Shown here one piece after another: positions 36,120 through 39,186 of a stretch of 64,000 nucleotides of DNA; position 1 is the stretch's first letter; each line of letters begins with the position of its first letter. A program made the translations under genes and the position numbers. The stretch covers positions 124,001-188,000 of the forward strand of contig MKVH01000002.1 in NCBI GenBank assembly GCA_001899175.1, in the 5' to 3' direction. Source of the stretch: Candidatus Kapaibacterium thiocyanatum (GTDB taxonomy: Bacteria > Bacteroidota > Ignavibacteria > Kapaibacteriales > Kapaibacteriaceae). The notes under the pieces are model-generated. The model worked only from the letters and a program-made list of their open reading frames with translations, made no database searches and was not told the DNA's origin.

Positions 36120-37658
36120 TCAATGCTGGATGAGCAACGCGAGGATATCGTCGAGTGTATCGGCTTCGTCGATCGACATGTCCCTGTGCCATGCGAGGAT
36201 TCTCGGAGCGCTGACGCTGACTCCACTCTTGTGCCGTGCGGAACGGCGGATGGTGTCGAATCCGATATCGAATACGAGTTCCGGCTTCACGGTGCGGATA
36301 GGCCCGATCCGTTCGATCGTATTCGAGCGGATGAAGGTCTCGACGTCGATGCCAAACCCATCGGGAACGTCGGCCGCGGTTTTCGCGACGGACACCAGTT
36401 CGCCATCCCTCCATACGGCGAACGTATAGATTTCCGAACGACCGGTCTGGTTGTTCAATTGCGTGTAGAGCAACACGGCTCTGATGGACAGTGCCCTGTT
36501 CTTCCAGAACAGCCATGACGCGGGTTCCATTTCACCATAAGCGGATGATATGCGACGCAACGAAAGTCCTGCGGCATGATGCGTCCGTGCCTGGGCGTGA
36601 TGCAGACGTACGTCGTTCCATGATGACGACGGCAGTATGACGGAAAGAGCGACGATGTCGCCGCGCTGGCGTCCGAGCAACGCTCGCCGTTGGGAACAGG
36701 GAAGATGTCTCGTATCGATCCCGTCGTATTCCAGGATATCCGATGCCATGAAGACCGATGCTCCATCGCTCGATACCTTCCCATCAGGGGTATGTGCGGA
36801 AACGATATGTCCGTCCTTCATGGGAACGATCGTACCGTCGAGCACGATAGATCGTATCCCGTCCATCTCGTATCGTAGTGAGTCGAGCATCGGATATCGA
36901 TCGGTTACGAGCTCGCCGTCCGTGGTCCATACGTAGAGCGATCCTTCGCGCATCACGATCTGTACGCGGCGGCCATCGTACGTGTGTTCGATGAACCAGT
37001 CCTTCACGTCACCGAGATCGTCGATCTGTCCTTCGAGCCGTGTCGGTTCCGCGAATGGATAATACCGTGCATTCGAGCGTATCGTCTCGTCGACGGCGAT
37101 GAGTTCTTCATAGGGTAACGCCGTCGTCATGCCGGCAAGTCGCATGGTCAGGGTCGCGATGTCGGTGCCGGTACTTTCCGACAATGCACGGACGACGCTG
37201 CCACGGCCGACATCGAAGCGGAAGGTCCCCGTCAGCAACTTGTTGAAGACGATGCGCTCCGAAGGGTTCATTCGGTGCCATCGCTCGCGGATCCATGCCT
37301 TCACGTCCATATCGGAGTGCTCCTGAAAGGAATCGATCGCGGCGAGGAGGTCATGCAACGACGTCGTACCGTCTTTCACCCCGGTCGGAATGACGAGGGC
37401 GATGGTCTCGGCCAGATCGCCGACGGCGGTCTGGCATTCTTCGAAGAGCCATTCCGGCACGCTCGCATCATCGATGGCGATCTCGCGGAGGGCTGTGAGT
37501 GCGATCCTGCGTTTTCCGCGATATCCGAGCATCAACAGCAGGGCATGAGGGATATCGCTACGATGGGCCGTATCGAAGTAGTCCTTCAGCAGGGCATGTC
37601 TACGACGATCGTCGGTCGTACCATCGAGGTCGTCGTACAGGCGCGCGAAGAGGTTCAT
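36120..37658 (-). CDS. ATP-dependent DNA ligase-like protein lacking the catalytic lysine (probable pseudoenzyme)
   Basis: Protein of 512 residues with the layout of the bacterial ligase coded next to a metallo-beta-lactamase exonuclease: an N-terminal helical DNA-binding region (1-190), a nucleotidyltransferase domain (200-400) and an OB domain (400-512). The C-terminus is well kept (PELVFDIGFDTI, SARHKSGVSV, DEADTLDD). The active site is not. Motif I reads EHTYDGRR, with Thr226 where Lys accepts AMP. The SR after it is TT. Motif III reads LDGTIVP, with Thr276 for Glu. Motif IV reads AGLSLRR for EGLMLKR, and motif V has one Lys of KxK lost. Several independent changes argue against a sequencing error. 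It overlaps the exonuclease gene by ATGA, so it is still co-expressed. Confidence 0.85.
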   Translation of the reverse strand: MNLFARLYDDLDGTTDDRRRHALLKDYFDTAHRSDIPHALLLMLGYRGKRRIALTALREIAIDDASVPEWLFEECQTAVGDLAETIALVIPTGVKDGTTSLHDLLAAIDSFQEHSDMDVKAWIRERWHRMNPSERIVFNKLLTGTFRFDVGRGSVVRALSESTGTDIATLTMRLAGMTTALPYEELIAVDETIRSNARYYPFAEPTRLEGQIDDLGDVKDWFIEHTYDGRRVQIVMREGSLYVWTTDGELVTDRYPMLDSLRYEMDGIRSIVLDGTIVPMKDGHIVSAHTPDGKVSSDGASVFMASDILEYDGIDTRHLPCSQRRALLGRQRGDIVALSVILPSSSWNDVRLHHAQARTHHAAGLSLRRISSAYGEMEPASWLFWKNRALSIRAVLLYTQLNNQTGRSEIYTFAVWRDGELVSVAKTAADVPDGFGIDVETFIRSNTIERIGPIRTVKPELVFDIGFDTIRRSARHKSGVSVSAPRILAWHRDMSIDEADTLDDILALLIQH

Positions 37659-38647
37659 CGATCCTCCTCGTTCGTACCATAGAGTACCGTCAGTTCATCG
37701 GCGGCAAGGCCGCATTCCTCCTTCAGGTATCGGACAACGGTCGAGCTGAAGCCGTGCGTCACCAGAACACGCTCGGCCGACGTATCGGCGATCGTGCGCA
37801 GGAGATCGGGCCAGTCGACGTGATCGCTGACGATGAAGCCCAGATCCGTGCTGCGCCTGCGGCGCAGCCCTCGTACGGCCATCCATCCGGAGGCGAAGGC
37901 CGTGGACGGATCCGTGCAGCGATCGATCCATTCTTCGTTACTGCCGGACGAGATGATGAGGGCCCCGCGAAGATCGTCGACCGCCGTATGACGTGTGATA
38001 CGCTCGGTGGCTGGCAGGGGAACACCGGTCTGGAGCAGAACGTCATTGATGCGCCCGACGCTGTCCGAGACGAAGATCCTGCCGATGGATCGGTCGACCA
38101 TGCCGAGCAACCGTTGTGCCTTGCCGAGAGCATAACCGTTCAGGATACTCGTTCTCCCATCATCCGCATTACCAGCCCACCAGCGATCGATATCCGCGGA
38201 TACGGCTTCATTGGATGGCCATCGATAGATCGGCATGCCGAACGTCGATTCCGTGATGAACGTATGGCAACGTACCGGTTCGAATCGTGTGGCCCACGGA
38301 TCTTCCTGTCGTTTATAATCTCCACTGACGACCCATACCTCACCCTTATGTTCGACACGTACCTGCGCGGAACCCACGACATGTCCTGCGGGATGGAGCG
38401 ATATACCAACGCCGTTGATCGTACGTCGCTCGCCGTAGGCGATACCGCTGATGACGGCGGTGCTTCCGAGCCGATGACGAAGGATGGAAACGCCATCGTC
38501 GTGCGTGAGATAGGCGCGCATTCCGGGGCGGGCATGATCGCTGTGCGCATGCGTGATCACGGCCCGGTCGACGGAGCGGAGGGGATCGATGAAGAAATCG
38601 CCTGCCGGACAGTAGAGTCCGTGGGAAGTGACGGTCAACAGTGCCAT
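37655..38647 (-). CDS. Ligase-associated metallo-beta-lactamase DNA exonuclease
   Basis: Protein of 330 residues of the MBL-fold exonuclease family that is regularly coded beside an ATP-dependent ligase and the Lhr-type helicase. Zinc-site motifs are intact: THAHSDHARPG (HxHxDH) near residue 35, HPAGHVVGSAQV, SGDYKRQEDP with its Asp, and the late HVDWPDLL and VTHGF. It should digest DNA, probably in repair. The partner ligase that follows it with an ATGA overlap has lost its active site. No Lhr helicase is seen in the window. Its ATG lies 17 bp from the ATG of the divergent TPR gene, and both share one promoter-like element. Confidence 0.9.
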   Translation of the reverse strand: MALLTVTSHGLYCPAGDFFIDPLRSVDRAVITHAHSDHARPGMRAYLTHDDGVSILRHRLGSTAVISGIAYGERRTINGVGISLHPAGHVVGSAQVRVEHKGEVWVVSGDYKRQEDPWATRFEPVRCHTFITESTFGMPIYRWPSNEAVSADIDRWWAGNADDGRTSILNGYALGKAQRLLGMVDRSIGRIFVSDSVGRINDVLLQTGVPLPATERITRHTAVDDLRGALIISSGSNEEWIDRCTDPSTAFASGWMAVRGLRRRRSTDLGFIVSDHVDWPDLLRTIADTSAERVLVTHGFSSTVVRYLKEECGLAADELTVLYGTNEEDR

Positions 38648-38651
38648 GTCT

Positions 38652-38660
38652 GTAAATTAC
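38652..38660. promoter_or_regulatory. Shared divergent -7-like element
   Basis: The near-palindrome GTAAATTAC gives TAAATTAC on the plus strand, 4 nt before the TPR gene ATG. It gives TAATTTAC on the minus strand, 4 nt before the exonuclease ATG. The whole gap between the two start codons is 17 bp, so both mRNAs would be leaderless. Confidence 0.55.
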
Positions 38661-38664
38661 GACC

Positions 38665-39186
38665 ATGAAGAAGTTACCAGCGATACTCGTCGCCGCTCTG
38701 GCCTGCGTGCTGGCGTATGCGGTGCCGTTACCCCAGGATTCGGACGAGCATTTCGGCCGTGGTATGAATGCCTTCGGCAAGGGTCAGTACGACGTGGCCA
38801 TCGATCATTTCAGCAAGGCACTAGAACAGGATGCGTTCAACGTGGGAATCCGGTTCAATCGTGCCACCTGTTATCTCAGACTTCGGAAGTACGATGAAGC
38901 CATCACGGATCTGAGCAAGTGCATCGAACTCGCACCGGACGTCACGCAGGCCTATATGCAGCGTGCCGCAGCCTATGCGGCCACGCGGCAGCGTCCACTC
39001 GCACTGCAGGACGTCGACACGGTGATCGCACGGGATTCGGTATTTCCAAGGGCCCACGTACTTCGCGCACGGCTCACGATGGATATGGGACTGGATACCA
39101 TGGCGGCATGCCGCGACTTCAGAACGGCATTGCGGCTTGGAGACAGTACCGCACTGAAGTTCATGCCGACGCAGTGCAGACAGTGA
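38665..39186 (+). CDS. Exported TPR protein
   Basis: Protein of 173 residues with a signal peptide (KLPAILVAALACVLAYAVP) and at least three tetratricopeptide repeats (HFGRGMNAFGKGQYDVAIDHF, IRFNRATCYLRLRKYDEAITDL, AYMQRAAAYAATRQRPLALQD). It is expected to sit in the periplasm and mediate protein contacts; partners are unknown. It is divergent from the exonuclease gene across 17 bp. A link in function to the DNA repair pair is unlikely given its export, but co-regulation is possible through the shared promoter. Confidence 0.85.
   Translation: MKKLPAILVAALACVLAYAVPLPQDSDEHFGRGMNAFGKGQYDVAIDHFSKALEQDAFNVGIRFNRATCYLRLRKYDEAITDLSKCIELAPDVTQAYMQRAAAYAATRQRPLALQDVDTVIARDSVFPRAHVLRARLTMDMGLDTMAACRDFRTALRLGDSTALKFMPTQCRQ

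Follow-up and report, generated by a model that had tools for sequence, protein, structure and literature searches.

ATP-dependent DNA ligases of the LigB type have been described in bacterial operons together with genes encoding an Lhr helicase, a phosphodiesterase and an MBL-fold protein, and fusions between the exonuclease and LigB are also on record (PMC10140301, citing Ejaz and Shuman 2018). In that paper the exonuclease activity of the MBL protein is termed putative, and the role of the pathway comprising LigB, the exonuclease, Lhr and the phosphoesterase (MPE) is stated to be unknown. In the window, i.e. the whole stretch of 64,000 nucleotides of Candidatus Kapaibacterium thiocyanatum analysed here, the gene at 36120-37658 on the complement strand encodes a homologue of the LigB-type (TIGR04120/PRK09247) ATP-dependent ligases. 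It shares with the LigB of the Exo-Lig-Lhr-MPE operon (TIGR04120, 'cisplatin damage response ATP-dependent DNA ligase') the same three domains, the exonuclease neighbour and the gene order. Unlike the canonical LigB operon, however, this locus has lost the catalytic centre of the ligase, its product scores below the family cut-off, and neither Lhr (TIGR04121) nor MPE (TIGR04123) gave a match over the cut-off in the genome. The features of the locus are the following:

36120..37658, complement strand: putative pseudo-ligase, LigB/TIGR04120 homologue of 512 aa, catalytic residues lost (profiles, alignment, AlphaFold2 pLDDT 90.4)
37089..37658, complement strand: N-terminal DNA-binding domain, residues 1-190, the best conserved part (PF04675; 27/32 conserved columns)
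37389..37454, complement strand: two-helix hairpin EWLFEECQTAVGDLAETIALV, approximately residues 69-90, the piece of the N-domain common to all remnants and fusions
36489..37088, complement strand: nucleotidyltransferase (NTase) domain, residues 191-390, fold retained, active site gone (PF01068, alignment, AlphaFold2)
36123..36488, complement strand: OB-fold domain, residues 391-512, GPIR...RHKSG core retained (alignment, AlphaFold2)
37655..38647, complement strand: ligase-associated MBL-fold exonuclease, TIGR04122, 330 aa, metal-binding motifs intact (profile, motif alignment)
37655..37658, complement strand: stop/start overlap ATGA, CGATGAAC, translational coupling (sequence)

The 512-aa protein is encoded by an uninterrupted ORF, in agreement with the original prediction, which described the gene as full length and free of stops and frameshifts. 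The TIGR04120 and PRK09247 profiles score it at 305 and 343 bits, respectively, under their equivalog cut-offs of 400 and 543, and by the TIGR04120 score it falls outside the family. PF04675 and PF01068 are both above their cut-offs (30.4 bits against 26.2 for PF01068), and AlphaFold2 predicts with confidence (pLDDT 90.4) a three-domain ligase fold, composed of DNA-binding, NTase and OB domains, that aligns along its entire length with DNA-bound human LIG1 (Z 29.5, 497 residues, rmsd 6.4 A). The fold landmarks of exonuclease-associated ligases, as had been claimed for this protein, are thus borne out. The exonuclease gene adjoins on the upstream side, scores 438 bits against TIGR04122 (cut-off 325) and carries metal-binding motifs that are invariant across all 14 sequences compared; the proposed coupling to an intact MBL exonuclease is supported by both the ATGA overlap and the state of the neighbour. 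A PADLOC search returned no defence match.

In ATP-dependent ligases the N-domain and the OB fold close round the DNA and the NTase domain performs the chemistry, as established for LIG1. An alignment of the window protein with 62 exonuclease-linked ligases from named genomes and three from kin genomes reveals the following substitutions:

36981..36983, complement strand: motif I, Thr226 (ACG codon) in place of the AMP-accepting Lys, K226T (sequence, alignment)
36921..36923, complement strand: R246T, SR pair lost and replaced by TT (alignment)
36831..36833, complement strand: motif III, E276T, LDGE to LDGT (alignment)
36570..36572, complement strand: motif IV, E363A (alignment)
36555..36557, complement strand: K368R, EG..LK to AG..LR (alignment)
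36507..36509, complement strand: motif V, K384F, WWKWK to WLFWK (alignment)
36177..36179, complement strand: motif VI, K494M, RxDK to HRDM (alignment)

Motif I of the window protein reads E-H-T-Y-D-G, with Thr at a position where Lys226 is found in 63 of the 64 comparison rows. The original prediction had named the Thr encoded by ACG in motif I, the losses of the motif III Glu, the SR pair and one motif V Lys, and the change of EG..LK to AG..LR, and every one of these is present in the alignment; its list was nevertheless incomplete, as it missed that the NTase domain has lost its FxxLQRR loop by deletion. Its statement that the OB-domain motifs are kept holds for the GPxR...RHKSG core but not for motif VI, in which RxRxDK has become AWHRDM (R489A, R491H and K494M). 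The Lys of motif VI is not an absolute requirement, RWDL or RKDL being found in otherwise intact relatives; it is not universal, since a divergent LigB subfamily of family f35 (L189, L190 and L193) has RWDL in motif VI and all other motifs intact. D228, G229, R231, D274 and D307 are retained in the window protein. K219, the nearest Lys, was considered as a substitute for the motif I residue and rejected because it aligns to a variable column, and the alignment offers no other Lys at that position. Judged on these residues, the window protein is almost certainly a pseudo-ligase, with catalytic residues absent from the sequence and the fold kept in the predicted structure. With Lys226 and motifs III to V missing, AMP could not be loaded, and the protein would be able to hold DNA and not to seal it. 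Ligase mutants in the motif I Lys can still perform the last step at pre-adenylated nicks, and so a reduced enzyme sealing only pre-adenylated (AppDNA) ends, or using another nucleophile, might be envisaged. We regard this as extremely improbable, given that the later steps depend on the QRR loop and on motifs III to V, which are lost as well, and that the NTase domain is wholly absent in relatives.

The loss is unevenly distributed along the protein. Among the columns conserved in at least 90% of the other sequences, the window protein retains 27 of 32 in the N-domain, 34 of 67 in the NTase domain and 27 of 50 in the OB fold, and the difference between the N-domain and the NTase domain is significant (Fisher p = 0.002). 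This bears on whether the gene could be a pseudogene in early decay that is open by chance in GC-rich DNA, as the missing catalytic residues and the loss of Lhr and MPE from the operon might suggest. Long ORFs antisense to real genes are common in the window, e.g. that of 389 aa at 37499-38668 on the forward strand, due to the G+C-rich codon bias, and consequently an open frame alone is weak evidence here and long frames can arise by chance. Nevertheless, early decay is very improbable, in view of the better conserved N-domain, a G+C bias by codon position that is normal across the N, NTase and OB domains, the confidently predicted fold, and relatives whose remnants are under purifying selection and in some cases fused in frame to the exonuclease. 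Selection was measured on pairs of relatives of the window copy, with dN/dS estimated by NG86 with codon bootstrap. For a pair of fusion proteins (G009/G017), dN/dS was 0.15 (0.10-0.21) in the exonuclease part, 0.05 (0.01-0.15) in the hairpin and 0.24 (0.13-0.42) in the OB fold; for a pair of dead full-length proteins (G070/G075), in which synonymous sites are near saturation, the values were 0.21, 0.29 and 0.18 in the N, NTase and OB domains, respectively. The remnants carried by the relatives thus evolve under purifying selection.

When the window pseudo-ligase was used as a direct query in a scan of genome contigs, no relatives were found. Within its family, Kapaibacteriaceae (f1, 23 genomes, the window genome being G000), the exonuclease is present in 13 genomes, and a ligase or a remnant of one in exactly the same 13, both being absent from the other 10 (Fisher p 9e-7, not corrected for phylogeny). 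Only one of these ligases, that of G007, is intact (577 bits, with EWKWDGIR and WWKWK). The ligase of G001, the only genome of the same genus, is also dead: its motif I reads EWLVEGSR, extensive stretches of its NTase domain are deleted, and it is about 32% identical to the window copy. In five genomes (G002, G004, G006, G016 and G019) a protein of 240-320 aa has its N-domain joined directly to the OB fold, with no NTase domain, and in five others, of genus g5 (G009, G011, G013, G015 and G017), the exonuclease, the N-domain hairpin and the OB fold form a single ORF. All f1 remnants have in common a hairpin of the form 'WLF(D/E)EC..HVG..(A/S)ET.AL(L)' and an OB core of the form 'T.E.FGPVR...VF.I......APR(R/K)KSG'. 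For the NTase-less G006 protein, AlphaFold2 yields two well-folded domains connected by a low-confidence linker (pLDDT 89, pTM 0.61), as expected if the NTase domain had been replaced by a tether. In G004 (C63, L068 and L069) some 10 kb separate the exonuclease from the NTase-less remnant, and the latter immediately precedes Lhr and MPE.

These sisters speak to two points of the original prediction. It held that the window protein should not ligate, and loss of ligation is supported by sisters in which the whole NTase domain is deleted while the N-terminal and OB segments persist together with the exonuclease, fused to it in five genomes. It also allowed that this copy alone might be decaying beside intact homologues; in fact, G007 is intact, but G001 and ten other exonuclease-bearing members of the family are dismantled. 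In a species tree based on rpoB and LigA, the window genome groups with G001 (95/98), the intact G007 is sister to the NTase-less G006 (95/94), and genus g3, G002 and g5 together make up a single clade (100/99), in which only g5 has fusions, the deepest forks being unresolved. On the assumption that a domain once deleted does not return, the family has undergone between two and four losses of catalysis. Acquisition of the intact G007 ligase by transfer seems less likely than vertical descent, as its exonuclease falls on the family side of the exonuclease tree, off the non-family rows (98/100). The order in which residues are lost and the domain is then trimmed, excised and fused is assembled from different living lineages and is not a time series.

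The rest of the operon has a different distribution. Lhr and MPE were both found in G004, G007, G011, G013, G015 and G029, the helicase gene being split between contigs in G011 and G013, and both were missing in a profile search against cut-offs from G000, G001, G002, G006, G009, G016 and G019; the genome of G017 is incomplete. The dead ligase therefore outlives Lhr and MPE and tracks the exonuclease, since this partner is retained in the seven genomes that have neither. A possible fusion involving an Lhr-like helicase was noticed in G037 (C44, 1193-3799), where it lies within an ORF of 1287 residues.

Dismantled ligases are also found outside the family, in other Bacteroidota families and on one Chloroflexota contig. 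In a sample of 395 genomes of the phylum, the exonuclease is over the cut-off in 71 and the ligase in 60, and the shortfall of eleven includes five f1 genomes, G070, G075, G334, G307 (372 bits, partly degraded), G065 and G248. The motif I Lys is absent in G334 (f17), and this position reads EWSIDGIR in G523 (f20) and EENFSGLR in G269 (f35); in G603 (f17) there is no NTase domain, in a gene broken over two contig ends. The proteins of G070 and G075 (f24) retain the Lys and have lost D, R, SR, LDGE, EG and WWKWK. Likewise, three genomes of f22 (G307, G448 and G521) retain the motif I Lys, whereas motif V and the Glu of motif IV are gone, and dismantling may be in progress there. At these loci (L180, L274 and L276, respectively) Lys or Arg occupies the position of the motif IV Glu and WWKWK is absent; in G486 and G547, of the same genus, the ligase is intact. 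A Chloroflexota contig (L145, PMV_1.47) carries an EWTWGGIR ligase beside its exonuclease. Intact ligases are found in f1, f17, f20, f22 and f35, and an intact LigB is present in G029 as well as in G007; since intact ligases exist in the same families, the losses would be separate events if descent was vertical.

Outside f1 the pairing is not absolute. Four genomes of f60 carry an NTase-less remnant away from the exonuclease (L267 2944-3837 in G426, L268, L269 and L270), and in G065 (L182) and G248 (L181), both Bacteroidota, the exonuclease is over the cut-off and neither a ligase nor a remnant could be recognised next to it. The two genes are also apart in G004, G070, G075 and G334. The f60 remnant adjoins pyrF and a DUF2851 gene, a gene for DNA-alkylation repair lies further on, and the 40 kb of G426 that were inspected contain no exonuclease; the exonuclease may be encoded elsewhere in the genome, or the remnant may have another partner. 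It is conceivable, from this remnant lying between DUF2851 and DNA-alkylation-repair genes with no exonuclease nearby, that the remnants have a job independent of the exonuclease, as a nick- or ssDNA-binding protein or as a scaffold for LigA, Ku/LigD or glycosylases, and dead LIG4 indeed acts as an NHEJ scaffold that promotes Lig3 activity (PMC9638927). We nevertheless consider such a job rather unlikely for the window protein, as it is opposed by the exact co-occurrence in f1, the overlapping genes and the g5 fusions.

Since the segments spared by every deletion are DNA-binding ones, kept with the exonuclease or, in g5, inside it, we hypothesize that the pseudo-ligase is probably a non-catalytic DNA-binding or positioning subunit of the MBL exonuclease, with sealing left to another ligase. 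Adenylation and nick sealing would have been lost and the DNA-gripping parts kept, namely the N-terminal hairpin domain and the OB fold, with the dead NTase domain linking them. The co-translated protein would hold nicked, gapped or broken DNA while the exonuclease trims it, and final sealing would pass to LigA or to a Ku-linked ATP ligase. DNA binding, the complex in the window species, its substrate and the handover to LigA/LigD are what we infer from the locus and its relatives. LigA is encoded in all 19 genomes searched, including the window genome, and the Ku-linked ATP ligase at G000:C21 keeps an intact motif I, EIKWDGYR. At that locus (L080 2963-5335) an apparent Ku, a phosphoesterase (PE) and a LigD-type ligase are encoded by three separate adjacent genes, the Ku and phosphoesterase labels being read from the sequence and not from profile matches. 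A DNA grip retained without chemistry, in a partner kept in step with the nuclease, would also fit a brake, i.e. a competitor on nicks or ends that keeps active ligases off during exonuclease work, or an inhibitor of the exonuclease. This seems improbable to us, as the one-chain fusion suits positioning better than a dissociable inhibitor.

Beyond the positioning subunit proposed for the window species, we come down narrowly in favour of a broader statement, that LigB has a second, non-catalytic function, as a DNA clamp and nuclease-positioning subunit, on which selection can act in its own right, and that at least five lineages independently destroyed or excised the catalytic domain while retaining the clamp, a path whose end point is a single-chain exonuclease-clamp enzyme. 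The repeated removal of catalysis with retention of the hairpin and the OB fold would amount to a natural separation of function, suggesting that LigB serves the exonuclease in some way other than by sealing and that hairpin and OB fold are the minimal parts. If true, this would define a new class of ligase-derived nuclease accessory protein. The single-chain fusion is well suited to structure determination and assay, and genes annotated as 'ATP-dependent DNA ligase' may in some cases not encode ligases.

In the open-access literature no description was found of a natural pseudo-LigB or of exonuclease fusions lacking the NTase domain, and this limited search agrees with the original prediction, which knew of no such pseudo-ligase; fusions that keep the ligase domain are known (PMC10140301). 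In those of Opitutus terrae and an Antarctic metagenome, the MBL exonuclease is N-terminal to the N-domain of the ligase (PMC10140301), as in g5. Their description includes the catalytic domain of the ligase, whereas the g5 fusions are without the NTase domain and have only the hairpin of the N-domain. In human cells the DNA-binding domain of LIG4 binds the nuclease Artemis (PMC9956705; PDB 3w1g), and LIG4 promotes repair even when catalytically dead (PMC9638927). The likeness to the present case lies in an MBL-type nuclease that works with a ligase via the ligase's DNA-binding domain and in a ligase with a non-catalytic role; human LIG4 is, however, naturally active and the bacterial protein naturally dead, and the contact within the bacterial pair is one that we infer. 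A dead homologue kept as the partner of an active enzyme is also known from the prozyme of T. brucei (PMC5201418). In contrast to pseudoenzymes of the prozyme type, which partner an active paralogue, the pseudo-ligase of the window would partner an unrelated enzyme, a nuclease.
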